The notes under the pieces are model-generated. The model had not been told where the DNA came from. It did not search any database and saw only the letters and a list, made by a program, of their open reading frames with translations. From Quercus robur (lineage: Eukaryota; Streptophyta; Magnoliopsida; Fagales; Fagaceae): a DNA stretch of 64,000 nt. The stretch covers positions 68,379,362-68,443,361 of the forward strand of contig NC_065535.1 in the NCBI RefSeq assembly GCF_932294415.1, given 5' to 3'. The position numbers were made by a program, and so were the translations under genes. Positions 4,414 to 37,400 of the stretch are shown here, one piece after another. Every line of letters starts with the position of its first letter. Within the stretch, counting starts at the first letter, position 1.

Positions 4414-4528
4414 ATATTAGGTTATATATATATATTAGTTAGTTGAAATAAGAAGTTATTTTTCTTAGTGAAAATATTCAATGCGAAATCATAACATTCT
4501 TATGTATTGCAAAACAAGGTAACACCAC

Positions 4529-4562
4529 TTCTACTCAAAAAAGAAAAAAGAAAAAAAAAAAA
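4529..4562 (+). mobile_element. Tail-only poly(A) insertion
   Basis: AAGGTAACACCAC occurs at 4516-4528 and again at 4563-4575. Between the copies is only TTCTACTC followed by an A-rich tail. A 13-bp target duplication plus an A tail is the signature of LINE-driven target-primed reverse transcription, here with almost no body. Confidence 0.65.
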
Positions 4563-4997
4563 AAGGTAACACCACACTACAGGGAAGAAGGCTGAACTAA
4601 CAAGTACCATTGGTTTATGACCATGAGCTATACTAAAAATCCAGAAGTGTATTTGGTGAATAAATGTTACACCTATACCCACTTCACAAAAGCAAAAATA
4701 AGCCCAATGACACGTGTATGCATACAAAGTAAAATAACCTATAATACATTAAAAAGGCCTATTGAAGATTCAAAATCCCCCCTTAGTTGCTTTTGTAGCC
4801 AGAATTCCTTTCTCCACAGACACAGCAATGTCTCAATACTCCAACATTCCGAAGACAACATATATGTGTCCAATTGATTACAGATAGTCTCATCCACTAT
4901 TAACATCAATAGCATCATCAGCATCATTGGCTTCCCTTTATCTAAAAGGATTGCATTTGCATTAACCCAGTACCTCTTTTTGGCTTGGGAGGATGAT

Positions 4998-7900
4998 TTA
5001 CGAGTAAAATTCATAGGTCTTGGCTTTAATTACGATAGTCCTCAATCCTCCAATTGGGGATAAAATCATTAAGCAAAGGCCAAATGCGATGCAGATCTGA
5101 AATCAATGAAGCCAAATAAGTTCAACTAAACTTAAAGTTCCAAGCAAATCAAAACATAATGACAAAGGAACAAAAATCAAGTGGAACTTACCCAGTTAGT
5201 CCACCAAGATAAACCGAATCTCCTTGGTTTGTAGATGGCAAGCCACATGACACAAGGGAGCTGAGGATTAAAATCAAGAAGAGTCAGAGATTATATGAAA
5301 GTTCTTTTTCTAGGATAGTAATTGCTCCAACAAAATTTACAAATAGCATTTTTCTAAAATTAAGGATGACAAAGATTCATGACAGGGTGTGGCTTACGAA
5401 ATATGTAGTTGGGGCAAAAGCAAATCCACCAAAAAATCCAAGAAGTCCGCCGAAGAAAGGGAAGGTAATGCCAATGAACATGGTAAATGCTGCAATAGAA
5501 AAATGTCATACAAAATTAAGTTCAAACCAAGCCCATAAATTGGTTCTTGATCCCACAACATTGTTTGACATGAGCATAAGGGGGAGAGGAGTTTACTTAC
5601 CCACGTATACATTACGTGTAATGAAACGCAGAGTACTTGTAGGCCGGAAATGCAATTTCTTTACCAATACAGTTTCTATCATGTCAAACACTGGCATTGC
5701 ATAAATCTACATAAAAAAATAAAAAATAAAAAAAATTCAAATGGGAGTTTGATTAATAAGATGTTATGTTATAGATATGAGGAAAAATATGTAAAGCTTA
5801 AACAAATATTGTAGAGTTTGGGCATTACCTGATAGCTTCCAATAACATGGATGACAACAAACATGTTAGCCGTTATAATAAGCCATTTAGGCTTATTTAA
5901 TGAGATGAGAATATTATCTTCAACAGCATTTCCAAACATCCAATATCCAATCAGGGCAACAGGAAAGTAACACAAAGCCACAACTATATAGGCAACGACA
6001 ACTCCCCTCCACATTGGCCCCTTTGATGGCTTTTCTGGTGTAGATGGGATTGTGGCTTGGATCTCCAATACCACATTGTGACCAGCATAGGCAAAAGCCA
6101 CATCACCCAAGGCACTGAAGAAGTTGAACACTGTTCCGGCAGTAGACTTGGCTTTGTAGCCGTATTGCACATCTTGCTGAACACCTTTGTTAAGAGAAGC
6201 TGACCAGGCAATGGTAGAGTAGCTGCCAAACAAAATACCAATCACATATTAGCATATTGCATATTGTTTAGAGAAATGAAACACTATAAGATTAAAGTGC
6301 GTTTGGATGAGCATTTTGCTGATATGCTTATTTGCTGAAAGTTGATTGAAGAAGTATAGTTTTGCATGGAAAAAGCAATGGTTTAAAGAATTGTACATAA
6401 ACCAAAAGCAATGCTTGTTACAAAAGTTGGCACATAATTTTAGAGAAATGAAATGCACATAAGACTTGAGTGTACCTTAAGGACATGACTGCAGCAGCCA
6501 AAGAGATACCGGAGATAGCGTTGAGGTTGGGAAGGTGGGAGAGCACAAAGTGAACAGAGGCAAAGATCATAATGAAGTATGTTAATTTGATACTTTTACA
6601 GTGATCACTAGGTTCAGCACAGACGGTGTCATGGACCTTCTTCAATGATGTCCCACCAGTGACCATATAGACTATGTTCACACCAACTTCAACAATGAGC
6701 TGTTGAGGCACCACAATATAAAGACCAAGCTTTTCACCAAAGGCATGCTGACCCAGTTCATGGTATCTATCAAACCGTTTTCCTGGTACCATTTCGTGCA
6801 TCTCAACCATTTGCCATAGAGTGTACAAAGTAATGATCCAGGATAGAACTAGTATTGCCACACCAGGACCCCTGAAATTGATAAAAGGAAAGCTCAGTTT
6901 TGAAAGTCATTTCTTAATTACCAGACAAAGGTTAACATAATTGTAACACAACATTAAAAACATACCATCCAAGCTCTGACATAGCATAAGGGAGACTGAG
7001 GACACCAGCTCCAACCATGGCAGTGACATTGTGGAAAGCTGAATACCACCATTTTGCATTCCTTGAAGAAGTAATTGGAAGCCAATCATCAATAGCCTTC
7101 TCCTTTGCTAATTTCTCATCAATCTGTATTTGACGATTACACAAGTCTTCATCAGTATCAATGACAGTTTACAAGCAATGCTTTTTTGCTTATTGCTTAT
7201 TTAGTGTTTTTATTTTTTTTTCTTTTTCTTTTTATGTACAATTTTTTTTAAAACTTCATTTTTTTTTTGTTGCCTTATAACTATATTTTTATTCTCTTTG
7301 AATAAATAAGCCAATTCAAAGGAGCACTAAAATCAATAATGTTGGAACTAGAAAAACTAAAAAGAAGAAATATAAATTATTTGTCTCACTTTTTATATTC
7401 CACTTTATACTCCATTAGTCATAACTTGTCATGTATTCATTTGACTTTATTTATAAATTAAATAAAGTTTAAAATGAAAAAAAAAAAAAAATTCAAACAC
7501 TTGTTATTCCATGATTGGTGAAACATGAAGTGGAATACAACAAATGGAACAACTATTTGTATCTAGAAAGAAGTTTTTTTTTTTTTTTTAATAAAAAATA
7601 TAGCTTTTTAGTGGTAACTTAATCCAATAAAATTGAAGTTAGTGAACATCAAGATCAAAAGAAAAAGATAGTGTACTGGTGACCATCATGAATGTGTGCC
7701 TTTCCCTTGAAATTGGAACTCATTTTCATATAAACTAGTTTTGGAGGTAAGCACAAAATAATGATGTTTCCCAAGTGCTGGAGTGGAGGGGTCTATAATT
7801 ACAGATTGCCTTAAAAGTCCTAGGCGCACTAGAGTAATTCTTGAAAGTTGAAGCTTATTATATATTGGGTGATTGACGTATATCAGTTGGCAACTAGGCA

Positions 7901-8500
7901 TATATCCCCAAGTCTTTGGAAAAGTTAAAAGGCCAAACAGTTGCCAACTTGTTAGTTCTCCATGGGCTGCTTATGCAGTAAGTCAACAAAACCTAGTAGA
8001 GGCCCACTCGCCTCCAATCACGTTTCCACTCAATTTGACTTTTTTTTATTTTATTTTATCCTATTCCTAAATATCACTTGGTATCAAATGGAAAAAACTC
8101 CTTTTAGCTCAGCCTGTAATTATTTATCTCTCCCACTTCCCTAGCATGCCGGAAAAGCTCAATTACTTTTTCATGTATTTTAAAAAGCCCCCTACTTGTT
8201 TGTTGCCTTATAAATATTGTTAAAGTTGTTGTGTAATTGTGAGTGATTGAATGATGAATGAAAGCATAAAAGAGAGTATATACAAAAGTTTATGTGGTTT
8301 GGTTTGACGGCCTATGCTTATGGTAAAAGGTCCTTAACGACTATATAATCTAATTAAGCTCTTATTTACAAAGAATCAAATATAGGGTCTATATACTAAA
8401 GAATACTTGATTAACTAACCCTACACTAATCTTAGACTAACCAAATGTAAATTTTTACTTGTTCTACAACTACATGAACCTATAATTAGTTTGGGTCATA

Positions 8501-8537
<37 letters not shown>

Positions 8538-10292: not shown

Positions 10293-10402
10293 GGCTTTGT
10301 TCACTGTGGTGAATTGCAAATAGCAGAAGAAGGAGATGAGGCAAAAGGGTGTGAATGAATTCAAAACAAGTTAGAGCTTAGAATTCGAAATGGGTCTCTC
10401 TG

Positions 10403-10410
10403 TATTTAAA
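10403..10410 (-). promoter_or_regulatory. Possible TATA box of the LHT gene
   Basis: On the minus strand TTTAAATA lies about 110 bp upstream of the LHT start codon, in a region otherwise made of GA-rich leader-like sequence. Weak motif evidence only. Confidence 0.3.
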
Positions 10411-10792
10411 GGGAAATGATGTATGAGAACAGCTGTGTACCTGAGACATGAGATTCTGAGAGAGAGAGAGAGAGATCTTGAAAGTGACGTTTTTTTTTTT
10501 TGTGTTTGTCTTTCATCTACAGACTTCAAAAGCAGGAATTATTTATTTATGTTTTTTAATAGCTTAGGACCACATTCTTTTTGACCATTTTTTTTTTCCT
10601 ACAATTTTAAACTCGTCGGTTGTAAGCGATTTTTTATCAATTATCTATGGGCCATCATTTTCCTTCGTCACTCACATATTTCCATGTAACAGTTGTGGAA
10701 AAAGAGTTGTGAGATAAGCCATTATACTAGATTTTCTCTCTTTAAAAAAAAAAAAAAAAAAAAAAGAAGAAGAAGCAATGACCTTTATAATA

Positions 10793-10949
10793 AATGAGTA
10801 ATTTTAATACCACATAAAATGTTACAACTATATATTCAATGCACTACATTGTAACTGATTGACTCTCACTTTCATGTTCACAACTTTTTTTTACTACTTA
10901 TAAACCTATAATGTGAACAGTTGAAACATTTCATGTGGTTTTAAAATTT
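10793..10949. mobile_element. MULE-like MITE (157 bp)
   Basis: Terminal inverted repeats centre on ACCACATAAAATGTTACAAC (left) and the reverse complement of GTTGAAACATTTCATGTGGT (right). The 9-bp duplication TTTATAATA is at 10784-10792 and 10950-10958. The size of the duplication fits Mutator-like elements. Related to the MITE at 54030-54199. Confidence 0.65.
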
Positions 10950-11202
10950 TTTATAATATATAGATAACATGTTTACATGCAATCCAGGAATTTCCATGAA
11001 ACACAATCCTCAGCCGGCGGCCCACCACTCCGGCAGGACAGTAACTTTTTTATATAAATAACATCCATAAAATATATATCCAATTATAAAAATGGATAAC
11101 GGTAAAAAATGTATCAATTCTTTTATTTTTTATTTTAAAAGCATCTTGAATTATCAAATTATCAAATAAGTTGCATTTGCAAGTTGTAACATAGTGATAA
11201 TC

Positions 11203-11226
11203 ATTTACCAAAACAAAAAAAAAAAA
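11203..11226 (+). mobile_element. Tail-only poly(A) insertion
   Basis: AACATAGTGATAATC (15 bp) occurs at 11188-11202 and 11227-11241. Between the copies is ATTTACCAAAAC plus a run of A. Same type as the insertion at 4529. Confidence 0.65.
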
Positions 11227-11775
11227 AACATAGTGATAATCGATTTTTTTTTTATGCCACGTCCAAATTTAACATCTGGCTACTGGGTAAAACGATGTGG
11301 TAAATTTTGATTATGTCTTATTATAATAGGAAGGAACCGACGTGATACTTTCCATGACTATACATTTTATTAACCAAAAAAAAAAAAAAAACCACAGTAT
11401 TACTGTTACTTACACATCATTATTGTCAAATGGTTTGCTTAAAAAATGACTAATTGTCAACCTATAAATCTACACAAACAAAAATATAAAAAGATTTGGC
11501 CAATTGGTTTCGAGTCTTTTGAGTTTTGACCCGCAATCAGTCCTATAAGTAAAAGTATAAGATAAAAATAGGTTTTCGTAATTCATAAATGGTAATTTTC
11601 TATTTTATACTCAAACCCATTCAGAATATGCCAGAGCGGCAAGTAAAACGCATTGTTGCACAGCTCTAAAAAGTAAAAAATAATTAGAGTAATTTTAATT
11701 ACAACGTCATGATTACGGGGAGGCTTCGAAAATTTTGACAATGGAATAGCTGTGCTGCGTTTATACACGTAACTA

Positions 11776-12536: not shown

Positions 12537-12545
12537 ACGTAACTA

Positions 12546-14473: not shown

Positions 14474-14481
14474 CACTTGAC

Positions 14482-15719: not shown

Positions 15720-18700
15720 TGGTATCAGAGTTTTCTCTCTAGAATTTTCTCTAAGTTTCTAGATATTTTCCCAAATTCCAATCTAGGGTTTGGTTTTTCT
15801 TTTCGATTTTTCTCTCAAATTTTCTCTTTCTCTCAACTTGCCTAAGATTTTTCTTATCATCAATGGCTTCTGCTGCTTCTTCATCTACTCCCACTTCAAA
15901 GAATGCTCCTCCATTTGCTCAGGATTCTCCAATGGACAATCCCCTGTTTTTGCACCATGGAGAGGATCCAAGCATTATGCTTGTGACTCAGCCTTTGATA
16001 GTGAGTGAGATTACTCAGCTTGGGCACGAGCAGTAAGGAAAGCTCTGCTCACCAAGAACAAGTTAGGCTTCATCAATGGCACACTCACTTTGTCATCTTC
16101 ATTGGTGTCCACACCTTCAGCTGTTCAAGCTTGGATCAGGTGTGATAATATGGTGGGAACTTGGTTGACAAACTCAGTTTCTCCTAAGCTTCAAGCCAAT
16201 ATCATCTATGAAGACACTGCCTTGGAAATCTGGAATGATTTGAGAGATCAATTTGCTCAAAAGAATGGTTCTAAGATTTACAACCTTCAGAAGGAGACTG
16301 CAGAACTCCATCAAGGTGAGACTTCCATTACTAATTTTTTCACTCTATTGAATGTTCTTTGGGATCAATAGCAGAACAATAGTCCTTTTCCTTCTTGCAC
16401 TTGTGGGAAATGTACATGTAATGTGAATAAGAGACTTAATGACTTGCAATCTAGAGAATTTGTTATGAAGTTTTTGATGGGGCTAAATGACTCTTTTTTA
16501 CAAGGACACAAATTTTGCTTATGGATCCTTTTTCCATCTGTCAATAAAGTGTATTCCTTGATGATTCAAGAAGAAACACAAAGGTCTGTTACTCATTGTT
16601 CCAATACAAGGGTTGAATCAGCTGCCTTGATTGCTAAATCACAAAATTTCAATGTCAATTCTGGGGTCAATTATGTTGGTAACAATGGGAACAAAGGAAA
16701 CGATAAGCCAATTTACACCCATTGTGGTAAATTTGGTCACACCATAGATAAGTGCTATAAGTTGCCTAGATTCCCTTTTGGTTACAAGTTCAAAGGCAAA
16801 AATCCAATGGCACATCAAGTGTCTCTTTCACAACCCCAAGATCTCTCTTTTCTGGCTTCTTTGGGACTTGTGACACCTGGTTTCACTCTAGACCAATATC
16901 AACAGCTACTTGCTCTTATTGGCACTCCTAGTTCTCCATTAGTTCCATTTGTTCAAGGGAAAGACACACTCACTACTGCCATGGCTAATGTGGTATCTTC
17001 TAATGCTTCTGCAATGGCAGGTACGTATGGATTTTAGTCACTCAGTTTTTTCTACACAAGTGGTTAATAAAAGGGCATATGATTCCAATACTTGGGTCAT
17101 TGACACTGGTGCCACTGATCACATAGTGAGTTCTGTCCATCTTTTGACCACTGTTACTGCTATTACTCAGTCCATGGTTCAATTGCCTAATGGAGAAACA
17201 ACATTAGTAACACATGTTGGCACTGTTATTTTATCATCCTCTCTTATCCTCCACAATGTCCTATGTGTACCTTCCTTTTCCTTCAATCTTTTCTTTGTCA
17301 GTTCTTTTACTAAATCTCAACCATATTGTCTTGTTCTTTTGTCTACCTTTTGCTTCATACAGGACCTTACCTTTTGAAGAAAGATTGGAGTGGGACATGC
17401 AGTTGATGGACTGTACCTATTACATTGTGGCACTTTTCAACAACCTTCTTCTACTGCATTTTCAGATTTCCTAGCCAATCACAAATTGGGTGATGCTTTT
17501 CATCCTTTCTCTTCTGCAATGTCATCAAGCTCCCTTTCTTCTCTCTAGCATGCAAGATTAGGCCATCCATTAGATGCTAAGCTTCAAGTTTTAGGTCATA
17601 TTTTTCCTTTTTTGCAAACACCATGTAATGATCTTTGTAAGGTCTGTCCTTTAGCTAAACATAAACGTTTGCCTTTTCCTTTCAATAATAAACTCAGTTT
17701 TTGTGCTTTTGATTTGATTCACCTAGATGTTTGGGGACCTTATGCTACTTCTATTTTGAATGGTTTTAAGTATTTCCTAACTGTGGTTGATGATGCAACC
17801 AGAGCAACTTGGGTATACTTAATGAAATCCAAATCTGAAGTTGGACCCCTCATTTCTTCTTTCTATTCTATGGTTCTTACACAATTTGGATGCAAAATCA
17901 AATCTGTTAGAACTGATAATGCTATGGAATTTAACATGCCAAATTTCTATAGTTCTAATGGCATTGTGCATCATCATAGTTGTGTTTACACTCCACAACA
18001 AAGCTCTATTGTGGAGAGAAAACATCAACATCTCCGTCCATAGCTAGAGCTCTACATTTTCAGTCTAAAATTTTCCCATTCAATTTTGGGATGATTGCAT
18101 CCTTATAGATTACCATCTTTCTTATTGAATAATAAAACTCCTTATGAGCTTCTTTTTAAACAACCTCCTTGCTATGATCATTTGAAAGTGTTTGGTTGTG
18201 AATGTTATGCCTCTACTGTTGCTCAAACTAGGACTAAGTTTTCTCGTAGAGCAAAGAGAAGTGTTTTTCTTGGTTATCCTTTTAATGTGAAGGGTTATAA
18301 GTTGTTTGATCTTCAATCTCATTTTGTCTTCATCTCCAGAGTTGTTGTATTTCATGAGTCTGTGTTTCCTTATCAATTTGATCCTTGCTCTTCTTTACCT
18401 GCTCGTTCCATTCCTCTACCTTGCTCTCCTTCTGTTTCTTCTGAATCTTTTGATCCAATTCTTCCTTCTTCCACTTTACCTTTTGCTCCTCTATCATCTG
18501 ATCCTATTGCTGATCCCATTATCCAAGTTCACACTGATCTTGATGATGAATTCTTACAAGATGTCCTTGCTGAACCACCTGAGCCTTTGGTTGATCCAAT
18601 TCCCCTTAGAAGATCTATTAGGATTCATAGACAACCTTCTTACCTCCAAGCCTATCACTGTAATCAGGTACCCTCAATTCCCACTGCTGTTGCTCTCCAG

Positions 18701-20335
18701 TCTGGTACTTCCCATCCTTTATCTTCTCATCTTTCTTATCACTCTCTTTCTCCTTCTTATAAGCATTTTTGTTGTTCTATCTCTTTTGTTGTCGAACCTT
18801 CATACTATTGCCAAGCTATTTCTAATCCTAAATGGCAAGAGGCCATGGCAGCTAAAATAGCAGCTCAAGAAGCCAATCACACTTGGACTTTGATACCCTT
18901 GACTACCAATAAGAAGCCCATTGGTTGTAAATGGGTTTATAAAATCAAGTACAAGTCTAATGGTTCCATAGAGAGTATAAGGCTCGGTTGGTGGCCAAAG
19001 GTTTCACACAAAATGAAGGAGTTGATTACAATGAAACCTTTTCACCTGTTGCCAAAATGGTTTCTATTAAGTGCCTTTTGGCTGTGGCTATTATGAAGTG
19101 TTGGTATCTTGGTCAGCTTGATGTCAATAGTGCTTTTCTACATGGGGATTTGTCTGAGGAGGTTTATACATCTCTTCCATCGGGGTTTCAGAGCTAGGGG
19201 GAGATGGTTTGTAAGTTGAATAAGTCTCTTTATGGGTTTAAGCAGGCTTCTAGGCAATGGTTTGCGAAATTTTCTAACACCTTGGTTCAGTTGGGCTTTA
19301 AGTAATCCAAGGCAAACTATTCCCTTTTTACTAGACAAAAGGGTCATTGTTTCATGATTTTATTGATCTATGTGGATGCTGTTTTGATAGCATGTAATGA
19401 TAAAAAGGAGGTAGATCAGTTCAAGGTGTTGCTGGATCAGAAGTTTAAGTTGAAGGATTTAGGTGACTTGAGGTACTTCCTTGGTTTGGAGATTGCAAGG
19501 TCAGATAAGGGTATATCACTTTGTCTAAGAAAAGACACTCTTGAAGTGTTGAATGATGCTGGTTTGTTAGGATGTAAACCATCTAAAACACCAATGGAAC
19601 AAAATATAAGGTTGAGTAAGTATGAAGGGGAAGAGCTCAAACACCCAAGTGCTTATAGAAGGCTTATTGGGAGGCTGTTGTACTTGACCACCAGGCCAGA
19701 CATCACCTATATTGTTTATGGGTTGAGTTAATACATGGCCAAGCCAAGGAAGCCACATCTGGATCCAGTGCATAGAATTTTACAGTATTTGAAGAATGAA
19801 CCAGGGAAAAGCATCTTGTTTTCAGCTAGGACAGAGTTACATGTAAAGGGTTTCACAGATTCTAACTGGGCTGCTTGTCCTGACACTAGGAGGTTTGTCA
19901 CAGGCTATAACATTTTCATTGGGGATTCCTTGGTCTTATGGAAATCACAGAAACAATCCAGAGTATCTAGATCCTTAGCAGAAGTAGAGTATAGGGCAAT
20001 GGCAATGGCTACTTGTGAGATAGTGTGGATACTGTATTTTCTTAAAGACATTGGTGTTGAACACAAAAGGAAAGCCTTGTTGTTCTGTGATAGTGAGGCA
20101 GCCTTGCACATTGGATCAAATCCAGTGTTTCATGAAAGGACCAAACATATTGAGATAGATTGTCATGTAGTTAGAGACAAAGTGTTGGAAAAGGTCATTA
20201 AATTGAATCATGTTAGGACTCATTGCCAACTTGCAGATTTGTTGACCAAGGCATTGAATTTTAATCAATTTTCAAGTCTTATTTGCAAAATGGGAATGAT
20301 CAATATACATTCAGCAGTTTCCTTTGAGGGGGGAG

Positions 20336-20656
20336 TATCAGAATGAAGGCAATAAACACAAGCAAGGGCAGATGGGCTTGACAGAAGAGGATCAAGGTTG
20401 GAAGGTCAACTGTAGAATAGACTTGAAGCTGAACGACAGTAACTGTAGCTTAAAGCAGCGAAACGACTTGTAGCTAGTGTATAGTTACTGTTAGTAGTTA
20501 GCACGTGTATATGTTAGTTATAGATATTGTACAACACGTGTGAAAGTTAGTTAGATTGTTTTTGGTAGTTTTTTTCTTCTTTGTACATATATATACAAAA
20601 CTTTGTATTTGTTTTCTAATTAATGAGAATTAGTTTTTACCACAGCTTTTCTAATA
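20336..20656 (+). repeat. 3' LTR of the copia element
   Basis: 321 bp, starting TATCAGAATGAAGGC directly after the purine tract and ending TTCTAATA. Together with the start of the left LTR the outer ends form a perfect 8-bp inverted repeat (TATTAGAA / TTCTAATA). Confidence 0.88.
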
Positions 20657-22253: not shown

Positions 22254-23167
22254 AAGAGAATCGATGCTCTTAAGAATATGAATGATCATAAAGAAGAAGT
22301 GGGATATATCAATTTACAAGGCACTTAAATGATCTTCTCATCTCATTGATCCAAGCTTTTACTACATGCTGAGAAGTTATTACGGTGTTGTAAATGCTGA
22401 GAAGTTATTATGGTGTTGAATTATGCAGCTCCATTTGTTACTTTCGAATGAAAAAATTTGTGTAAATATAATTTTTCATATTTTTCAGTATTTAGTAGTA
22501 TAAAAAAAAATTTATTTTTAGTCAATAAAAAAAATATGACTTATTTTTTAAAGATTGTTTTTCAATTTTTTTTTTAAGAAAATAAGTCTATCTCATGATA
22601 AGCAAAATAAGAAAAGTTATGAAATTGTTTTTCAACTTCTTTAAAGTTGCTACTAAATATAAGAAAATGAAAAAGTTTTATAGAAAGTATTTTCTAAAAA
22701 ATGACTAATTTTTTTAGAAAACATTAACATTGAAACAAATAAAGCGTTCAAAAACTAGTTATAATTGTAACTCTCAAGTCTCAACAGTTGCAACCATATA
22801 TAGTTGAACTGATTATGGAATACTTTGAACATAACCCATTAATCTTCATCCATATTCGTTGGTTTCCCAATTTTCTTTGCCTTCCATTTAACATGACAGT
22901 GATCAACCTCTGTTCCCACAATGAAACTGCATAATTACTCTTATCTCAGTATATAATATATTGATAGTGGCCATTTTTTCCACCGTGCCCACCACGTGCT
23001 CTTTTTGTGGAATTCTTAGTTTCATTATGATTTATAGTATTGGCATTAACCTTTAGCTTACCCAATTACCTATTTTTCCCCATTGTTAAATTTAAACCGT
23101 GTATCATAACGCACTAGCCCTATTAATGATTTTCCATTATTTTTTCTTAGGTTAACATCCATCTTCT

Positions 23168-23644: not shown

Positions 23645-23649
23645 ATTTT

Positions 23650-23780
23650 CGAATCCCATGTGATGATAAAGAACAATCATCAGACCAAGAAACCAATCAG
23701 TTTTTGGTGTAGGCGGGGGTTGAACCCCAGATCTCTTATACAATCATCAGAGACTTTACCAGTTGAGTTAACTGGAACCC
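23650..23780 (-). mobile_element. tRNA-derived SINE (Au-like)
   Basis: On the minus strand the 5' part reads GGGTTCCAGTTAACTCAACT and continues with a Pol III box A-like element, then box B as GGTTCAACCCC (23715-23728). The body 'cctacaccaaaaactgattgg' is what I remember of the widespread plant Au SINE. The 3' part fades out near 23650. Not a functional tRNA: no cloverleaf around the boxes. Confidence 0.75.
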
Positions 23781-23871
23781 ACGTGACATCAATATTTAAA
23801 TGGTTCGAATCGTTTGATTGTGAGTAGTTTAATGAGATGCTATTTTTAGCCAAAAAAGAAATAGAAAAGAA

Positions 23872-23924: not shown

Positions 23925-23930
<6 letters not shown>

Positions 23931-23947
23931 TAGACAAGTAATTTGTT

Positions 23948-23967
23948 TTTTTTTTTTCTTTGAAAAT
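23948..23967 (-). mobile_element. Tail-only poly(A) insertion
   Basis: CAAGTAATTTGTT (13 bp) flanks it at 23935-23947 and 23968-23980. The insert, read on the minus strand, is ATTTTCAAAG plus A tail. Confidence 0.65.
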
Positions 23968-23980
23968 CAAGTAATTTGTT

Positions 23981-26704
23981 AACCTACACAGATATGTAAC
24001 ATGGAATTAGGGATGAACACATCTTTCTGATAATTGGAACAATTTTTTTTTTTTTTTGAAAATATTTAGTATTTTAACACATACATACAAGGAGAGAGGG
24101 AAGAAGATTTTAAAGAAATTAATAGTGATGTATATCCAAAAATGCCTAATTCTTGAAGCAACTGGATGTCCTATATGATACATAGGATCTAAATCAGAAC
24201 CATTCGGAATCTTATTAATTTGTTGAATTTATTATTCTTCTTTGCTTCGTAAGCGGCAATTCATCAGATGCAACAACAGTTATGTGCCAGCAAGATAATG
24301 CTATGCCACTTCTATAAATTTCTGGGTATGATATTTTAATAATTTTGATTATTCTTAATTTTTTTCTGAAATATTTTTATATATGAATGGTTGATATATT
24401 ATAATAATTGAAATGAATAATCAAGAAGGACCCGTACACGCAGGCAAGATGATGATGTTCGATCTATGCGTATCAACTACACAAAATCAGATCATGTATT
24501 AATTTTCTTTGTAATAGATTTTTCACATTATTTACATGAACTTTTGGTCGTGTTAAAAAAAAAAAAAAAAAAAAAGAAGGTAAAATACAACCTTTGTTTT
24601 GGGGTACATGGACTACCTACAAGGCTACACCAAAGATAGTAATCAGGTTTTTATAGAACTTTTATATATATATGTTATAGAATAGTTGAGAAATAACAAT
24701 GAAAACATGTTAAAAAAATTGAAGATTAGTTATGATATAATGAGAAAATATGAAAAATTAAATAGAGAGAGAGAGCACAATGAATCAACATGGTTCAATT
24801 TTAAATGTCTACACAAAGGTTGTGAAGCCTGGACTAGACCAGGCGGTCTAATCAGGTTAACCATGAATTAGGTGTAGAAGAAAGATGCATGTGCCTATTG
24901 AATTTAGTTGAAATTACCAAGATCGATTGTCTTGTCATAATATATTAGATATGAAAAAGCGGCCTTTGAAATTGTCAAGATGTTGTCCACAGTAGCAGGT
25001 AGGGAATAAATCACAATAAGCCTACAAATTGGGTAGCAATAATAATGGTGAGAGAAAGAACCTTGATGTTGTCCAGGAAATGGAATAAATTAGGATGAGC
25101 CTACAGAATGACTGAAGCAGTGATGACAGAAGCAACCTAGATCTAGCGATTAAAAACAAATTTAGCAATTTAAATGGCTTAAGAGAATCTCATTGTACAT
25201 GCTCATAAATCCAATTATCCTATCAATTTTCTACTTGTTCAATTGATAATAGAACATAAAAGCGACTAGTGGGAAGAAACATGACACATGCTTCTTTACC
25301 ATGTTGATTTACAGTTTTCCAATTATATATTACACTTTTACAGAGACATGACACATGCTTCTTAACTTTTTTCTCCCAAAGAATTTTCCTATCACTCTTT
25401 TTGTGTTATCCCTTTCCCGCCGCAAAGTTGAGAATTTTCTCACTGGAAAGAAACTAAGAAAGAAAACAACAAAATATTTTTCTTAGATATTAGAGTCGAG
25501 TAAAACTAAAATAGGATTTCACTAATTCAATTCGCACTTTTACTCTATTTTATCACGTAAAATCATTCAATGCTCAGGACAGTGATGTTTACTTTTCTAC
25601 TCTCTCATAAATAGTAAATTTTATCATTTTTTTTTTTTTTGGTCAAAAGTAAATTTTATCATGAATTATATTAATAGAACCCACAAGTTGATGAGATTAA
25701 GAAGCATTATTAAATATAATTGCTTGTTTTGTAGCCGTTGGAGAGTTGACTTGTATTGCTTGGTGTGAGCTGCTGCAAAAAGAAAAGGTTGGAGGCTTTA
25801 GATTCCTACCAAAGCACTTGAAATTTCCATAACATTGACTGCATTTTGTACCTCAGGAAAAGTGATTTTCACATAACTCAAAAGCACGAAACATAAAGTA
25901 GAAAGGTAAACTGAGTTTTTCATTCTTCCAAAGTCCGCAATAGTACCTAATATTCAACAAAAATGATAAGATTTACACCTTATAAGATATACAATTAGTG
26001 GGAATTCTTATACAACTCAAAAGCATAACATGCTTGCAATTTTTCTTTTCTTTGATTTTTTTGCTGATATTGTTGAGTAGATTACTTGTACTACTTCCAT
26101 TTCAAATCATAGAAATAATCATCAGACTTTTATAATTATTTTCAACAATAAGTGCAATCTCTTATTAAAATCATAACGTGATTCAGGAACAATACAGTAC
26201 CCCTGATTCATTTAAAAAATAATAATACTAAGAAACCTAGACGCAATGCTGGAATAATCACGTTAGAGAAAATTAATTAGAAATGATAGTCAATGCAAAC
26301 ATCATGCAGCCTTTGATTCAACTTGGTGTTCCAAGTTGTCAATTCTCAATTTAGCATACGGACTCATTGGTGCATGTGTGTCCAAATGTGATACGGATCA
26401 GTACCAAATGATCGATGTTGAAATCACAAAGATTTTTTCATCTTAAACCAATGAAATTTCAAAGGAGAAGCCCACAAAAGGCTAATAAAACTTTCATTCA
26501 CCAGCCATCTCAAATGTGTTGCACTTTAATGTTGCCAATTTTCTCATAATAATTTCTTTCTTTTTCCTCTAGCTGTCCAACTTTGATTCCACGTGTAATG
26601 CCCCGAATTCCAGTCAGCTATCAATGATCATGTTGACTTCTTTTTATATTCTTTTTGGACAATTTTTCTTTTCACAATTTTTAAGATAATAAGTTATGAT
26701 TGTT
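23981..26704. other. AT-rich gene-free stretch
   Basis: No gene seen. Apart from the tail-only insertion at 25628-25647 it holds A/T runs (24041-24056, 24557-24577) and ordinary AT-rich sequence. A 'gatgttgtccasrrrgtagcagg' phrase near 24980 and 25070 is faintly repeated. Confidence 0.5.
25628..25647 (-). mobile_element. Tail-only poly(A) insertion
   Basis: AGTAAATTTTATCAT (15 bp) lies at 25613-25627 and 25648-25662. The insert on the minus strand is TTTGACC plus 13 A. The same TTTGACCAAAAAA appears on the plus strand at about 40727, at the end of what looks like a longer retroposed tail. Confidence 0.7.
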
Positions 26705-26712
26705 ATAATATT

Positions 26713-27140: not shown

Positions 27141-29010
27141 ATAATATTACTTTTATTTGACTATACATTGATATGATTTTATTGTACACCAATCACAATA
27201 TTCTTTTAAAAAAAAATTATAAAAGCTGTTTATGAAAAAAAAAAAATTGTGTTAAATTAATTGTTAATTGTTAAGATTTTTTTTTCTTTTTTTGTGAATC
27301 AAAAAACTATTTAGAATCTCACTTCTTTAAAAGAATCTAATTATTTCATTTTGTACTAACATAAGGCTGTCAGCCAAATGGAGCCGACATATAATTATAA
27401 TATTTTAATTTCAATCAAAGGTACACGTATTGACAATATTGAATATTGATTGTCAACGGTCGCGCATGGCCATAACTCGCGTTCATATTGAACCTTCCCT
27501 CCATGTTCATTTCCCACCCGAATTGTCATTGAGTGTGGGGGACTCTTAACTTGAGATATTTTAGGATAACAATTTTAATCGCATACTTTTTCACAATTAT
27601 TTTATGTAGTAGTCTATAATTGGTTGTCTATTATTTCCATATAAGCTCACTATCTTTTTTTCTATCACTCACAGTCAATCGTAGATAAAAGAAGAGTGTT
27701 TTTTTCTTTTTTTTGTTTTTGTTTTTAGTGTGTTCTTCGAATTATTGCTCTATAACTTAACCGTCACTTGTTTCAGAAATGTGCAAGTTACTTCACCGAG
27801 TGGGGGGGACTATTTTCAAACCTACCCACCCACTCAAAGCCTTTCATTTTCATCAACATAAGAAATCATGCTACACCACACCACAAGGATAGAACTTGGA
27901 AGATTCAGAAAAACTTCACACGAAGACTTGGACTAAGGAGGTATAAAAGTCAACACAACACAAAGTGCTATTGTGGTACACTCGCCTCTTTTTGAATTTA
28001 GTCGACCATGTGGATGGCGATATATGCGCTCACCATGTTTTTGCACAAAATTGACCTGAATTTCTTAATTAATTTGCACATGTTTTTACGGCTGGTATGG
28101 CTCCTCACGGCACGGCTGCTAGCTGATTCAAAGTTGGCTCACACGTTTCACTCAATTTTTTTAATGCCAATTATTATTTCTTGAAAATGTTTTAAGTATG
28201 ACTACAGTTTTTTTTTTTTTTTTAATTACAAATTTTTTCCTGTATTCCAGTTGTTCATATCTAACCAAAAAGGCAAAATTGATTCTTAAAAAAAATCAAA
28301 AATCAAAAAGACAAAAAATATATGCTTGTATGGTATTTCCATCATTTCTTTAAAAAGTTGTGGATACAAGGAAAATATTTCCAAACTTGAAGACAAGAAA
28401 TATGTCTAATGTGAAAAATAAATAAAGCAAATCAATTGACAAAAAACAATAAACTAACCAAGTAATTGGTTTATCCTGCAAGGGCTTAGTTTAGTAAAAA
28501 ATATTGTGGATGTAATTTTTTTTCACCACTTATAAGTGTTGATAAGCTAAAATTTGAATAACGTCACTTTTACAATGATTTATTAATAATAATATTTTTA
28601 TGTATCAATCATAATAGGCAGCATCAACCTTTAAAAATTTTGTTCACTTATATTTATTGTTTAGCTTTACTATGAGTCTGTTTGGCTAAACATTTTGAGA
28701 GTTTAAAATATCTTTTTAAAAATCTAAAACTCTATTTTTGTAACCACAACTCTTCATAACTTTTTTTTGTTTTTCACGAACACTCATTCTAAATTCAAAA
28801 TACAGTTTTTCATTTCACAATCCATTAAAATGTAGGATTAAATAAAATTCAATCTTGATCCAATTGGTCAGTATTCTCAAGCTTTGATCTTACAAGCCAA
28901 GCTAGTTTATTAGGATTAAACGCTACTTGCTTGTGTCCATATATATCCACCCTGAAAAAAAAAAAAAAAGTCCTCCATATACATGTGGTTTACATTCAGC
29001 TATTCAATCT

Positions 29011-29068
29011 TTTTATTTTTTTTTTTTTTTTTTCTGTTTTTTTTTTTTGTTTTTTTTTTTTGAGAATG
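29011..29068 (-). mobile_element. Tail-only poly(A) insertion with long tail
   Basis: AGCTATTCAATCT (13 bp) lies at 28998-29010 and 29069-29081. The insert on the minus strand is CATTCTC followed by about 50 bases that are nearly all A. Confidence 0.65.
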
Positions 29069-29595
29069 AGCTATTCAATCTATTGGTTGTGAACCAAGCA
29101 GCTACCCACTATTTTGTCATAGTCAATTTATAATTAATTAATAAATGGCAGAGGTAAATAATCGAAACCGTTCAGGGAAATTTATTCAACACCTTCCAAG
29201 AAATTCAAAAGAAATTTTCTATTGACGCTTAATGTGAACAGGCTATTGTACCCGCACACGGTTAGTACAATTATTTGTGTTAGAAATAGAAGAGTTATCC
29301 GAATATATGGAAATCTGTGTCCACACCTCTAAATACAAAAAATGTCGATATATTTGAATGGACTGCGAGTATGGAAGATTGTGCTTGGATTTTAAAGCTG
29401 ATGTTAACACGGAATAATTTAATAAGTGCAACCTTAGTCACACTATTGGCTTAAGTTTTTGAGTTGTAATATCTAAAATTCTAGACCATATAAAATGTCA
29501 CAAATTATGCCATAATTGTCTATGTCGTAAACGGTAAATAGTAGAGCAAAAATAATGGATTTATATAAAAGTGACAGATAATCAGTCACAGTCTG

Positions 29596-29677
29596 ACACG
29601 AAGAATAGTTATGATAATAATTGTGAAATTTTATATACACGAAGAATAGTTATGATAATAATTGTGGAATTTTATGT
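29596..29677. repeat. Tandem duplication, 41-bp period
   Basis: 'acacgaagaatagttatgat..' occurs at 29596-29636 and 29637-29677 with one or two differences, so a recent local duplication. Confidence 0.85.
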
Positions 29678-30649
29678 AGTACTAGAATTACTCGTGAAAT
29701 TTTTATTTTATTTTTTTGGAAGTTTTTTATTTATTACTATTTAGTTATATATGTTTCTAAACGAATGACATCATATGTTGGAAATTTTGCATTATTGACT
29801 ATTGAGAGTTAGACAATTAGAGTCACCGTGACACTTGGGTTTGAATAACTCCTAGTAATTGTTTGACAGTTGACACAGTATGGAAAGCGAAAGCAAAGAA
29901 ATATAGGGATAATGGAATAAAGAATGCAAATAATTAGCCCAAAACAAGAATGCAAATAATAAGAGATTACTCATTATCCTTAGTTCTGAGTTCTAGCTAA
30001 AGACGGATGATGATACCTTTTAAGTATGAAAAAAAATTCACGGTTGGTGATGACAGGTGAAAGGAATAAAAAAGCGACATGATAAATAAAATTTAAAAAT
30101 AAATCTTATCCCAAACTTCTATTATATCCAAGTTTGAAATGGAGATTTTTTTATTACAAACTTGATTATAGTCAATGACTATAATTATCTCTAAAAAAAA
30201 TTAACATAACTACATAATTTAAAATTTTAATTGTTAGATTACATGTTCTTTATGTTCTTAACATGTATATCCAATTTCATGCCAATAGAATGTTATTTAT
30301 TATTTGATTTATAAACTTATTTTTTTATACATAGTTTTAGATTACAAAAACTTGAAATTTAAATATTTAATTGATGACATAGCTATTAATATTTTTTTCT
30401 TTTCTAAAAATTTTGCAAGCATGAAAGATAAAGAAGAAAATGTTATCCACTTATAGATTTGAAATTGTTTATAATAAATTAAAAGGTTAAATTGGTGGAT
30501 AATATATGCACGGGCATAAAAAAAAAAAGAAAAAAAAGGGAGGCCTCGTATATTTTTTTAATATAAAATTTGAAAGCCCGGATAAGTATAGGAAAAATCT
30601 CCACCGTCCTTTTCGAATAGCATGTATACAATCCAACGCAACTAATATA

Positions 30650-30684
30650 TGTTTCTCAAAAAAAAAAAAAAAAAAAAAAAAAAA
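30650..30684 (+). mobile_element. Tail-only poly(A) insertion
   Basis: AACGCAACTAATATA (15 bp) lies at 30635-30649 and 30685-30699. The insert is TGTTTCTC plus about 27 A. A third partial copy of the target phrase, AACGCAACTAATA, follows at about 30705. Confidence 0.72.
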
Positions 30685-33600
30685 AACGCAACTAATATAC
30701 AATTCAACGCAACTAATAACTGTGTTTTTAAAAAGGAGAATTTGCACGGAAACGTTACAGAAAGTTAGTACCAAGTTATGACATTCTGGTAGATGGTTGC
30801 AAGAAAGTCTATATTTTTCTATGGATTTGTTGGTTATATTCGGATAAGAAGTTAAAGTTTTACTTACCACCATATAAAATAAGGGCTTGGACGGTTTGAG
30901 TTGGACCCGCTAAAACCCTTAAGCATTAAGCAAAAATATTCAGTAGTATTCAAATGCAGCTAATTGCCTCATTATGTACACTAATATACCAAGAATTCAT
31001 TTACCACCACACCCTCTTTTTTTCCGTTTTAATCTCTTTTCTTGTTGAAGAGTAAATTGGGATCATTACAAGAAATGTACTAAACAAGTAAATTCGGTCT
31101 ATGGGTTATCCTTGTGAAGCTTTATTTACTCATCTTTGTATCTTAATCGCTTGGAAAAAGAAAGAGGCTTATCCTATATTGTATCTTAATTCTTAATCCC
31201 TCATTATCTTCTCTTCCATTTAGAGCATCTAAACAAGAATTGGGGCTACCTAGTGGATAAGAAGAAAGAGAATCTTGAATACTCATTTGTTAGATTAAGC
31301 TAACCCAATTGAGGTTTTTTTTTTTGGTTATTAATGTACTATCATTTATCACATTCAAATGGTACTTCAAAATGAGACTGTTGTGGTCCTGGTTTCCACC
31401 AATTACAATGTCTACAATGAGGTTGATGGTTTTAGAAACTTGAGAAAATCCAAGCCACTGGTATTGATTATTGAATGGTTGATTCTTAACAAAATATATA
31501 GTTATATTGTTGAATGATCAATTAAAAGAGTACTAAAAAAAAAAATTTCAAGTTCCCTTGTAAATTTTGTATTAAAGATCATGGAAAAAAAATATAAGGA
31601 ATGAATAACATGTTTGATTATTATACCTTGCTTTTTTTAAAAAAAAAAATTCCATTTTATTATAACTCTATCAATTTTTAGTTTTTATTTCATGTTCTGT
31701 AGGTTAACCAAACATTATTTTGAGATTAAAAAAGGTAGGAGTACTCAAATTTGTTGATTCAGTAACTTTGAAAATTCTAGTATAAACGGGCCACTAATTA
31801 ATATGCTTCTCTTAGAAGAGCTCATAAATTGATTTTAATTTCATATCATTTGCATATTAAACTGGGTTTGTTACTAGTCCCTTGCTAAAGTTTGCTAGAA
31901 ATGTTGTTGAAGAGGTACTTTAGTTAGAAGAATCTTCAACTCCAGCTTCAGCCATGAGAGTTTGTATATCATGTATCCGAAACATGTAACCATCCTCACA
32001 TATGGGGTAAATGTAAAAGGTTGATTACATGTGTTGAATACCCAACTACATGAAAGGGTGGTTATATATATTTGATATACGACATGACATCCCTTTTTCT
32101 GCCATAAAAACTTTGTAGTATTTACTTTGATGCTCACATTATTTCTTGATATTAAAAATATCAATGTTTATTCCTTTAAAAAAATATTGTGTTTGTTATA
32201 TATTACTTGAGATTTTTACAAACACAACAAATTGATACAACATTTTCACAACAAATGGAGCGTCAATAACTCATAGGTCAAAATAAAATAAAATATTAAA
32301 ATAAAACCTATTACGACTAAAAAAAAGTATTGTAAAAATGTTATAATATTTTATTATATTTACTCTCTCTTGCCTGAGCCATGGCATACCGGTGGGCACC
32401 CTGGCAAGGCCATGACATGCTTATGTCTACGCTGGGCCAAATAACCTTTTTTGGGCACGCTTCTGAGACCACGGCATGCCTGTGGCTGTGGGCGTGCTTC
32501 TGACACCAAATAACATTTTTTTGGGCACTGTTTTTTGGTCGGACTATATATATAATAACTGCATAATTAGGTGAAGCCGATAAGAGGGTAAGTCAAGCGA
32601 CTAAGATCAAAGGTACATTTAATGGGCTGTCCACTGACCCAAGGGCAAAGATTGATGGGCCTTTGATATTCTCTTCTTTTAAAAATCAAAATCTGCCTCA
32701 ATGTTTTGTAGGTTGGGACTTGGGCCGAATGTATTTTCACGGCAAGTTCAAATTAGTATGTAGCAAACCGGTTGGGCTCGCGAGTCTAAAACTAATTTGG
32801 GTGTCTACCGTTGTGAAATGAATTGGAACTAGGATAGGGAAAACCATTTTAAAAGAAATAAAATAATTGCAAATTTTGACCCAATGGGCCTGCCTAGGAC
32901 AACAAAAAATGAAAACAATCAGTTTAAAAATGAAACACAAAAACAAAAACACCTTATTTACATGTAAACAAATTTTATTTTTTACTTCCTTTGTGTTAGT
33001 TTCAACAGCCTCTGATCCATTTTTAATTAATTGAAATATGTTAATGATCATATAACATTATTGTTTCATGCCATTTCAAGTAGTTTTCATTTTTTTTTTT
33101 TTTAATTGCTAACTTTTTTTTTTTACTAGCTCATTTAGATTGTTAAATAAATTGGATAAAAATATAAGTTCATCAGCTTATAAGCTTAAACAAATACGCT
33201 TATGATTTTATTAATTCAAAACTACGAAATTGAGAGCCAGCAATAGTGATAAGTTCTTACATTCTTACTTGCTAATTGCACATTCTAAGTTACATTGTCT
33301 TGTATAATAAAATTTTTGTTTGTTTATATGAAATGCAAACTGCGGCTATTTTTTGGGGAATTTTAAGAATAGCTTTGGCTGGATGAGCATCAAAAGCATC
33401 ACATTATCACATTGATTTACATGGTAAGGTTTTTAGAGGCCTTCAAAATTCCATGTCCTTTTACTCAAGTAACTGCATAATGTAAATTAATTTAGACATG
33501 TAACTATGTAAGTAAGCCGATCCATGTTTCTCTGAACAATGTGTTTGCTTAGCTACCAGAAGTTACTACTTTTTATGGATTATATTTAGATCATTTTGGC

Positions 33601-34456
33601 CAAATGAAATTTTATTTCAAATATGGTTGGATAAATCAGCTCCAATTCACCATGGTTTCTCTCTTTGAGCTTGTAAGCCTTGTACTATGCTATAAAGTAT
33701 GAGACAAGCATACAAGTGCATGAACTATCCTAGAACCATCAAAGATTACTTGTTTGATAGAAGATAGGTTGAACTTCACAAACAAAAAATCAATAGTAAG
33801 AATGTGAGCCTCCTTTGTAAGAATTATTTTTGGCCGTATTTGCTCCTTTAGAAGCTCTTTAATTCTCATAAATCTGTCTGTAATCACACAGCTCTGACTC
33901 CACTCCCTTCCCCCCAACTTTTTGCCTTCAGCTGCTAGATTAAACATTGTCTAAAGGCATTGACAAACTTGGTTCCCTAGATTTTATTTTAAGCTGATGC
34001 ACATTGAACGTTTATCTATCCATAGAATCACAAGCCTTTACATACTGTAAAAGCATATCACATTGTGCCTTTCTAATTCCCTGCCTCCCTCTTCCATTTC
34101 CCTTTTACTCGACTAAAAGATAAGGATAACAGATAAATACATGCTAATACAGAATATTACATTTTTTATTCTGCTAATCAGCTCCAATACAGCATGAAGC
34201 ATAATTCTGGAGCCAGTATTGAAGAACAAGTACATAACTTCTACATATTGAACAAGCAAACATGCTACAATGACATAAACAAAGGAAACATGCTAATAAT
34301 TTCTAAACTTCAGGAACCAGCTAGAGGACTGGTCTGATCCTTCTTCTAAGTCAGTGCATTTCTTTTTTGTTGGCATGGTTTCAAGTAGTTGTTACTTCCT
34401 TTCTGCATTTGAGGGGCCTGTATCATTTCAATACCCAAGTGTTCACATCAAGTGAA

Positions 34457-37400
34457 TCAAGCTACTGAAACTACAGGACAACTCTGACCATGTCGCTGCC
34501 TGCTTATTGGGGTTTTCACAGATAGACCTGATGCACCAAAACAGAAATATTGGCTCCTCGACCTTCTATGACTGGAGCCTTGTTTGGTCAAATTTGGTGT
34601 TTCATCATCAAATAGTTGATTGGAGGAAGATGGTCCTGCCACATCATCTTCAATAAAAATACCTTTTTGTTTATCTACTGAATTAGGTGAAGAAAGTGAT
34701 GATTTTGAAAATGAACTTGAACGAGAACGGTGTGGCACAGAAATATGAGGCACGGCCTGCATAACACCATGTACTAGCCCTGAAGCAAATCTTTTCTTCG
34801 CAGATGGACTTGATTGGTTGCTCCTGACAGAAAGTGTCCGTTTGTTGTTCGGAAGTGATGAAGGCTTTGAAAATCTCTCTCGAAGAGGAGTTGGAGCTTC
34901 ATCTGAACTGTTGCATTTCTTATATGATTCAACAGAACCCTCATCAATTGATTTTTTGGATCTCTCAGTTTTCTTTTCTTTCATCCGGGGCCATGGAAGG
35001 ACAGCTTTTAATCGTTGTGCTGCACTATTCATGGAGCCTGGTTTCTTGCTAGTTAGTCCCTTATTGTTCTCATTGGTTGAGTCATATGGACCAAGTTCAC
35101 TTGTAGATGAACTCATTACTGCACTACCTTGATCAGCAGTTGCATCTGATGAATTCTCAAGGCCCGTATACAAGAATATTTCTGTGTCAGAGATTCTAAA
35201 CGAAGTTCCCGGACTGCCACCATTACCTTGCATCTTTATGCGAGAAGCAATGGCTCTTCTTGCAGTATAATCCTGAGAGCCAAATATTCCCCCAGCTGAA
35301 ATTAACTGCCTAATCAGCATATCGGATGATGCAGAACGTGGCTGTTGTCTAAGGTAATCAAGTGGTGTCAGGCCATCTACATCATGGACATTCACATTGA
35401 TTGAAGGAGAAGTCATCAGAAGCTGCACGAGGTCAGAGTGAACATTCCCAATGATGGCCATGTGAAAAGCAGTCCTTCCATCATTATTTTTGGCATTGAT
35501 GACATCTTCCATATTGAAAACCTTCCCGTATACCAACTTCTTCATAAGCTCAATTTGCCGGTCCAGTCTTCGAAACGCAGCTGTCTGGAAACCAGAGACA
35601 GCCTTATGGAGAAATGTTTCTCCAGAATTGTTTTTCAGAGAGATGGATGAAGGAGACGCAGAAATTAGAACTTCAACTGCGGCTAATTGGCCCCTATTTG
35701 CTGCTACATGAAATGCTGTATTGCCCTGATGATCAGTGGAGTTGATGATATCATAGGATGCTATTAGATACTTAACTACCTGCATTAACAACAAGATGTC
35801 AATTTTTTTTTTCTTCTATTTTTGCTAAATAAGGTGTCAAAATTTTTATTTATCAAGTACTTGGATTTAAAATAAAAATAAAAATCCTACAGTTGCACCA
35901 TGTAAGTGAAAACCCCATATGGGCCTTAATAACAATATTTGAGAAATATTGTAAATTTAAATCAGAGGTTTTTGGATATCAATAAGTTTACAAGGGTTAT
36001 TTCATACAGCAATAAAATATTAATAGAAAACTAATTAAGAGTCAGGCAGCAGGTCTTTAGAACCATTAGTTCATAAGAGCCTCTGAAAAAAGAGATATCA
36101 GTATTTGCAAGTTTACTCTTTTCTGATTCGTTTTCAACCTAAGATATAACTTTATGGAGCAAATTAACTTTAAGATAAAAAGGTCCATGCAGATCACGGT
36201 GAACATTTTATAGATGGTATTGTGTCATTGTCTATTTTTGTACAAGTTAACTGATTCGGGCAGCCTTTCTTATCCAACAAAAGGGGCATGCATCTTAAAC
36301 CACTTTTAGGCCAAAACTGACGAGTATGGCTTTCAATGAGATGAGGACTTGACCTCATCTAGTATGATTGGTGACCTACTGGTTTAACAAAATTTGGATG
36401 AGCAGAAGCCTGAGAAAGGGGGCTTAGAGTTTATATGATTATTTTCAAGCATTTAATACCCTGTTGCTCAAGCTTCACTTCCATGATTACACATCTTTAA
36501 ATTGGTTCAATAAAAAAAAAAATCTTTAAATTGGTATTGTAAATGAACAATCATTAATTTAAAGTGAATGAATCACTGCTAAAGTAAATTAATTAAAGGA
36601 TTTCGCAATTGTGACTCAGTTATTTCCAATGATTTTTTTTTTTTTTCTTTTGGGGGGGGTGGAGACGAAAAAAATTAAAATTTTAGTTCTATGTAATGGT
36701 AAAGTATGAGCAACAAAACCAAAGGGTCAGTTTTCCATGAGCTTATAGTAGTTAGAGTCTCACCTCAACTTGCCCTCTCCCAGCTGCAGCATGTAGGATA
36801 GTTGAGCCCTGAACATCTCTATAAGCCAAAATATCAGAGCAATCAGCAAGAAGCTCCTTTAAAACATTCAAATTTCCTCCTCTAGCAGCAGCATGAACAG
36901 CCCTGTTCATCATCTCCCACTTGTAAACTGAAGGGATTTCCCCAATGTGCTCCACCATTTCTCCACCTTTACCTGTCAAAAACCTTGGGGAGACTGCAAA
37001 ATCAAAAAGAAGCCTGAAAACCTCAGAATTCTTACTCCTGGCTGCTGCATAGAGTATATCAGTTACACCATATTCTCCTTCTCCAAAAACAAGTAAAGGG
37101 TTCCTTTCAAGAAGTTCTTGAACAAAACCCAAGTCTCCAGCTGAGGCAGCAGTGTACATAAGCCATCCTCCATACCCAGCTCCAATGAGAGAATTTTTCC
37201 CTCTCTTGGATTCACACTCAACAAGAAGCCTTCTTGCAACCTTAGAACGACACTTGGCCACATCGTCAAACTGTACTTCATCATCCCAGACAGTTTCAAG
37301 TCTTCGAATTCGGCGTAAAGAGGTAAGCTTGATAAGGTGATTGCCATCAATGCGAAGCAGCTCCCGGACCAAGTCATAGTGGCCATTAGCAGCTGCCCAA

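Follow-up and report, generated by a model that had tools for sequence, protein, structure and literature searches.

Poly(A) insertions reduced to the 3' tail in the genome of Quercus robur

The window, i.e. the whole stretch of 64,000 nucleotides analysed here, corresponds to C2:68379362-68443361 of the 785.7-Mb genome, which comprises 42 contigs. Pfam matches in ten open reading frames (ORFs) of the window include ankyrin repeats, Band 7, an amino-acid transporter and an NUBPL-type ATPase, and further matches comprise a mitochondrial ribosomal protein and the SH3-like domain of a retroviral polymerase. The region 16009-20343, which shows broken frames and one ORF matching the Pfam SH3_retrovirus domain, looks like the remnant of a copia-type retrotransposon. 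A search of the window against Rfam gave zero matches at gathering thresholds.

Distributed over the window are short insertions consisting of a poly(A) tail preceded by a few other nucleotides (the body) and flanked by a direct repeat, the target duplication (TSD). Seven perfect repeats of 13-15 bp around such a short residue and A run had been claimed in a preliminary description of this DNA, and an exact scan of both strands recovered all seven, where the exact TSDs measure 13-15 nt and the bodies 5-8 nt (up to 10 nt for the site at 23935). Together with an older copy and a weak candidate, these sites are as follows:

4516-4575, plus strand: tail-only insertion, TSD AAGGTAACACCAC, body TTCTACTC, interrupted A-tail (exact scan)
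11188-11241, plus strand: tail-only insertion, TSD AACATAGTGATAATC, body ATTTACC (exact scan)
23935-23980, minus strand: tail-only insertion, TSD AACAAATTACTTG, body ATTTTC(AAAG), i.e. ATTTTC or ATTTTCAAAG (exact scan)
25613-25662, minus strand: tail-only insertion, TSD ATGATAAAATTTACT, body TTTGACC (exact scan)
28998-29081, minus strand: tail-only insertion, TSD AGATTGAATAGCT, body CATTCTC, interrupted A-tail of about 50 (exact scan and recheck)
30635-30699, plus strand: tail-only insertion, TSD AACGCAACTAATATA, body TGTTTCTC, A27 (exact scan)
36493-36535, plus strand: tail-only insertion, TSD ATCTTTAAATTGGT, body TCAAT, A10 (exact scan)
42991-43016, minus strand: old tail-only insertion of the TTACTTATC LINE family, reading TTACTTATC-A7, target repeat decayed
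22554-22635, minus strand: weak candidate with a 48-nt body and the 12-nt repeat TTGAAAAACAAT, A-rich and possibly due to chance

The body length at 23935-23980 is set by the chosen start of the tail. At 28998-29081 the scan gave a 35-nt body because of the interruptions in the tail, and the 7-nt reading was checked separately. A query with positions 4400-4700 against the genome returned the self-match and 11 short matches, all confined to the surroundings of the A-run, while the letters preceding the tail at 11188-11241, searched as TTTACC-A12, occur 1,197 times genome-wide compared to 357 times for the mirror pattern. The insertion at 36493-36535 is flanked by two ankyrin-repeat ORFs, one on each side, and the genome search revealed no paralogous copy of this site. 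Of two weaker sites claimed before, the one at 42998 does belong to the same class (TTACTTATC-A7 on the minus strand), but its repeat is not perfect, with about 10 of 13 letters matching when compared by eye. The other, at 63732 with an 80-bp body, did not come up in the scans; its repeat is low-complexity C/T-rich sequence and it is left uncounted. At 50675-50750 (minus strand), an exact 27-nt direct repeat surrounds 18 nt and a short A-run, which exceeds the size of the class and looks like a different kind of duplication. The tail at 4516 shares an A6-7 G A6 G pattern with the tails of L004 and of a SINE in L016, i.e. with unrelated insertions, and this pattern is perhaps that of a templated tail.

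In a strict test, an exact repeat of at least 11 nt had to begin directly after the tail, with its partner at most 40 nt upstream. Among the 103 tails of A8 or longer in the window, six passed compared to 0.098 expected from 10,506 exchanged flank pairs, and none passed in the mirror orientation, i.e. the poly(A) adjoins the duplication at the 3' end of the insert. A harsher control, for which the repeat was read at offsets of 20-210 nt, averaged 0.6 cases and never exceeded 3, compared to 8 observed (repeats of at least 12 nt). Markov models of order 1, 4 and 6 (100 sequences each, 10-nt repeat) yielded 0.01 passing tails on average. A frequency no higher than in shuffled sequence had been named beforehand as speaking against the claim; the observed number exceeds that in Markov sequences, and the tail-only observation in the window is confirmed.

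To determine the abundance in the genome, 20 stretches of 10 kb (200 kb) were sampled at random. They contain five tail-only insertions (two in L013 and one each in L015, L016 and L019), where the insertion in L019 was counted though its tail comprises only A5, and weaker repeat matches in L011 (including a 17-nt case), L017 and L022 were excluded. In a looser test, 6 of the 287 tails in these stretches passed, compared to 0.52 expected. With 7 insertions in 64 kb, the density in the window is higher than the 5 in 200 kb of the random stretches, from which a total of ~20,000 per genome is extrapolated with wide limits (95% 6,400-45,800; 15,700 if calculated from four sites). Genome-wide, TTCTC-A12 occurs 13,110 times compared to 1,006 times for the reversed pattern, a 13-fold excess, and TTATC-A12 occurs 4,030 times compared to 1,512 for its mirror. 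The five insertions in the random stretches and the polarity of TTCTC-A12 both bear out the earlier suggestion that such insertions are an abundant source of A runs.

A sample of TTCTC-A12 sites was taken as the first 40 of 100 places listed, all within the first 2.45 Mb of C1, from which one duplicate (L054) was dropped (n = 39). At a score of at least 8, 16 of the 39 sites were tail-only, including both L048 and L068, which are copies of one repeat, and 23 were without a supported short-body repeat; a TSD-flanked insert was likewise seen in only part of each other sample. Extrapolation leads to ~5,400 (3,350-7,600) tail-only insertions behind TTCTC-A12, assuming that the first 2.45 Mb of C1 are typical, which is doubtful because the exact-8 LINE ends described below show a trend towards the end of this contig. 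When A-runs of A16 or longer were picked regardless of the letters before the tail, 5 of 40 passed, including the long tandem-like repeat L077; this sample omits L030-L032, none of which is tail-only, and contains the near-duplicates L071 and L087. The difference between 16 of 39 and 5 of 40 (P = 0.005) indicates that tail-only insertions are a minority of the long A-runs, although behind certain pentamers they make up much of them.

When bodies of up to 280 nt were permitted in the TTCTC sample (n = 39, score at least 10), 17 sites were supported compared to 0.24 expected. Thirteen of them comprise bodies of 5-12 nt, and the remaining four bodies measure 62, 88 (L061, repeat-like), 89 and 238 nt, where the search pattern itself bars bodies shorter than 5 nt. 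In a TTATC sample (20 of 100 listed sites, bodies up to 150 nt), which omits the tail-only L095 with 7 nt and the unsupported L094 and L106, 11 sites were supported, ten with bodies of 4-13 nt and one with 115 nt. The gap in length is not absolute, as the window and the random stretches contain, besides twelve tail-only sites, bodies of 13 (L017), 17 (L011), 26 (window 58699), 31 (L024), 48 (window 22554), 62 (L012) and 152 nt (two SINEs). Strong repeats were determined for L024, L012 and both SINEs, and weaker ones for the bodies of 13, 17, 26 and 48 nt, so that these 264 kb contain five intermediate bodies of 13-48 nt, of which one has a strong repeat. Where bodies below 5 nt were permitted, none was found in the window or the random stretches except in the satellite L014; short exceptions elsewhere are a 4-nt body in L138 and a 3-nt body in L079, whose repeat contains one mismatch. 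L014, a 10-kb stretch with the look of a tandem satellite of ~146 bp period (from repeat matches), was excluded from several comparisons. A catalogue of 27 exact-repeat sites provides no independent evidence for the length range, because its 15 TTCTC members had been admitted only with an exact repeat and a body no longer than 15 nt (L054 and L068 dropped); such evidence comes from the TTCTC (n = 39) and TTATC samples. Altogether, the bodies cluster at about 5-9 nt, and intermediates are present but few.

The -CTC and -ACC endings of several residues had been taken as a hint at a few parent LINE or SINE families. This holds in so far as more than one source RNA is involved and the residue TTACTTATC is a LINE 3' end, whereas the -CTC ends could not be traced to a LINE, and the variable letters ahead of TTCTC do not bear out a small set of fixed parents. 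Ten LINE loci were chosen mainly by long open frames from 150 scored zf-RVT matches (11,838 first-look candidates), and the first A-run past the stop codon was taken as their 3' end. The end TTACTTATC-An was found in four of the ten (L109, L110, L115, L117), TTTACYG-An in two, and GTATC, CAATC, GTAAC and GGTG in one each, while TTCTC was found in none (0/10), i.e. no TTCTC parent with coding capacity is present among these ten loci. Matching of the residues to LINE 3' ends, as the preliminary description had proposed, therefore shows agreement for the TTACTTATC family and none for TTCTC.

A SINE of ~150 bp ending in GAAACTCTCTC-An with TSDs of 15-16 nt is located at L013 1995-2192 and L016 3228-3443, with a partial copy in the window at 23676-23782, and its head appears tRNA-like by eye. 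As a source of the -TTCTC tails this SINE was rejected, since the match stops after TCTC. A Pol III promoter body, as expected for a SINE, is absent from the tail-only insertions, whose bodies of 4-14 nt are too short to contain one. The best match of TTCTC bodies to twelve candidate ends often reached 8 nt, which is weak given the many candidates and is not relied upon. A repeat ending in TGTTTGTTTCTC-An or near to it was observed in L049, L050 and L055, with the copy in L055 comprising a 62-nt body and a target duplication, and is a candidate parent of the TGTTTCTC tails. Another explanation would be that most -TTCTC tails are tail-only processed pseudogenes of host mRNAs, introduced by the same insertion machinery. 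The letters upstream of TTCTC vary from copy to copy, as would be expected in this case, and AATAAA lies ~15-30 nt before the tail in some long-bodied TTCTC sites (L031, L042, L047). However, these three sites are, by eye, alike as copies of a repeat, and the 13-fold excess of a single pentamer would be unexpected for random poly(A) sites, which makes an origin from host mRNAs somewhat unlikely.

For the TTACTTATC family, the residue of the tail-only copies is the 3' end of its LINE parent. Before A10, the last 7 nt of this end occur 1,952 times genome-wide, the last 8 nt 1,587 times and the last 9 nt (TTACTTATC-A10) 1,279 times, compared to 87, 24 and 8 in the mirror orientation. Exact matches thus amount to 365 sites at 7 nt and 308 at 8 nt, where chance matches (mirror 87 and 24) and long copies with a single altered position are included in both classes. 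A supporting TSD was found within 60 nt for 11 of 19 exact-7 sites and for 10 of 18 later exact-8 sites (15 of 23 with the five earliest included). For matches of at least 9 nt (bodies up to 60 nt; L106 and L139, both unsupported, omitted), support was found for 3 of 20 sites, with bodies of 15, 20 and 22 nt; compared to 10 of 18 for exact-8, this results in P = 0.016. The bodies exceed the matched letters in 2 of the 11 exact-7 and 4 of the 15 exact-8 supported sites. Scaled accordingly, there are ~210 stops at 7 nt, 170-200 at 8 nt and ~190 across 9-60 nt, all from small numerators, so that stops at 9-60 nt are, based on small samples, roughly fifty times rarer per position than at 7 or 8 nt. 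The five first exact-8 sites, all with good target repeats, had suggested a stop at exactly 8 nt. This is wrong because there are 365 exact-7 compared to 308 exact-8 sites, and tail-only insertions of the same quality make up 11 of the 19 exact-7 sites. Among the matches listed on C1, exact-8 ends account for 5 of 9 in 0-3.4 Mb and for 18 of 91 beyond; insertion or survival of tail-only copies may be favoured towards chromosome ends.

Of the 27 exact-repeat sites, 24 have a pyrimidine immediately before the first-strand nick, and the target copy begins with A at +1 in 21 and with A at +2 in 20 cases. The 15 supported exact-8 LINE sites show Y at -1 in 13, A at +1 in 11 and A at +2 in 8 cases. 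This corresponds to a nick context of Y/AA (the slash marks the nick), although the definition of the sites itself favours A at +1/+2 to some extent, because the repeat can run into the tail. A comparison of target end and cDNA end in the same 15 sites showed 1-4 shared nt in 10, none in one and 1-3 extra nt in four, where the selection of sites inflates the shared nt. Microhomology at the 5' junctions of human L1 insertions has reportedly been seen as well. Two tail-only insertions on opposite strands, L057 and L058 (C1:2129296-2129377), comprise the same target sequence ACTTGAGTTTG, as if this target had been hit twice.

At L131, two copies of AAGTTGCTATTGTA enclose GGCTTATC and an A-run inside repeated sequence. 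L021, a related repeat copy with flanks 77-86% identical to L131, carries a single AAGTTCTATTATA and no insert. This sole empty site, a diverged paralog and not an ortholog, gives the only direct hint that the insert brought the second target copy to L131; L009 and L010, likewise copies of the host repeat, yield no information because of rearrangement at this site.

The anatomy, the non-chance frequency, the nick context, the LINE-end residue in one family, the empty site and the pile-up of bodies at 5-9 nt lead us to regard the sites as target-primed reverse transcription (TPRT) insertions by L1-type LINE machinery, in which copying was limited to the poly(A) tail and roughly the final 5-9 nt of the RNA body, with a probability of roughly 0.8. 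That the sites are TPRT products consisting of practically the 3' tail only, as first claimed, is backed by the order of repeat, body and tail, by the absence of the mirror orientation and by the empty site; that reverse transcription was 'abortive' is our inference. In such a process, a nick would leave a 3'-TT on the bottom strand (top strand Y/AA), and this T end would pair with the poly(A) of the RNA and prime the reverse transcriptase. The enzyme, which probably belongs to the L1 clade (the parent loci are known from a zf-RVT match), would copy the tail, enter the RNA body and halt ~6-9 nt on. Joining of the cDNA end to the target end upstream would follow, often across 1-4 shared nt, and fill-in would result in the target duplication of mostly 12-18 bp. 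The stop itself may mean that the enzyme failed to proceed from initiation into elongation, or switched too early to the second strand, rather than that pre-shortened templates were used.

Such templates would be poly(A) RNA fragments with a 6-9-nt remnant, e.g. a footprint protected from decay, which TPRT copied fully. They would likewise lead to a narrow length class with varied residues from many RNAs, and the bodies of one LINE family indeed end at both 7 and 8 nt. However, direct evidence for such RNAs is missing, and the nucleotides shared with the target in 10 of the 15 exact-8 LINE sites fit the joining of an incomplete cDNA, although this is indecisive as selection of the sites favours sharing. 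Altogether, an origin from short templates is considered unlikely. Ordinary 5' truncation with broad lengths, followed by a selective loss of longer copies near genes, is improbable. While it is in line with the larger exact-8 share near the C1 end among the matches listed, and with the five bodies of 13-48 nt (one strong) in 264 kb of unselected sequence, it should also populate the range of 14-60 nt, which selection could hardly distinguish from 8 nt. In this range, the TTCTC and TTATC samples contain one case (18 nt, repeat-like) and the LINE family 3 of 20. Tandem duplication or replication slippage with later expansion of the A-runs is extremely improbable, since in spite of some tandem-like matches (L061, L077 and the satellite L014) the strict polarity and the common residues before the tail stand against it, and the empty-site comparison, which had been expected to reveal such an origin if there was one, points the other way for the L131 copy.

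For the TPRT reading, we tentatively propose an early checkpoint, at somewhat less than even odds: once the poly(A) is copied, the plant L1-type complex would have to clear the first 6-9 nt of the body, and frequent failure would be sealed as tail-only scars, on the order of ten thousand per genome, which would record attempted instead of successful retrotransposition and seed a share of the A-runs.

As a kind, tail-only insertions are extreme 5' truncations. 5'-truncated L1-type LINE insertions likewise show a target duplication, poly(A), a T-rich nick and the 3' end of the parent, but the medians given for human L1 insertions in the accessible portion of PMC12016303 are 394 bp (somatic) and 1240 bp (germline), compared to bodies of 5-9 nt in the present class. 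Poly(A) and target duplication are also common to plant poly(A) SINEs, whose body the tail-only class lacks; the GAAACTCTCTC-An SINE of this genome agrees with the -TTCTC residues over TCTC only. Processed pseudogenes share poly(A), target duplication and possibly varied mRNA sources, whereas the tail-only class keeps no recognisable coding or UTR sequence and 5-9 nt are too short to assign. PMC3747384 describes a predominance of L1-clade LINEs in flowering plants, where an (A)n end is given for 224 of the 233 L1 families listed, and proposes a relaxation of stringent template recognition in plant evolution. The accessible portions of PMC12016303 and PMC13295347 contain no description of tail-only insertions, and the class is unnamed in the titles and abstract openings of a limited open-access literature, where absence does not mean that it is unreported. 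Within this limited literature, no description was found of such insertions as a separate class with a distinct length peak and abundance, and a body of 5-9 nt should escape similarity-based annotation.

If the proposed reading is true, LINE activity would be undercounted, as the stops at 7 and 8 nt make up ~1/5 of the A10-tailed ends of the TTACTTATC family (~380-410 of 1,952; small samples). The scars would be short enough to persist near genes and would yield A-run polymorphisms with a recognisable empty site. Furthermore, they would point to the stage of reverse transcription where the plant L1-type machinery fails, which would be testable in vitro.
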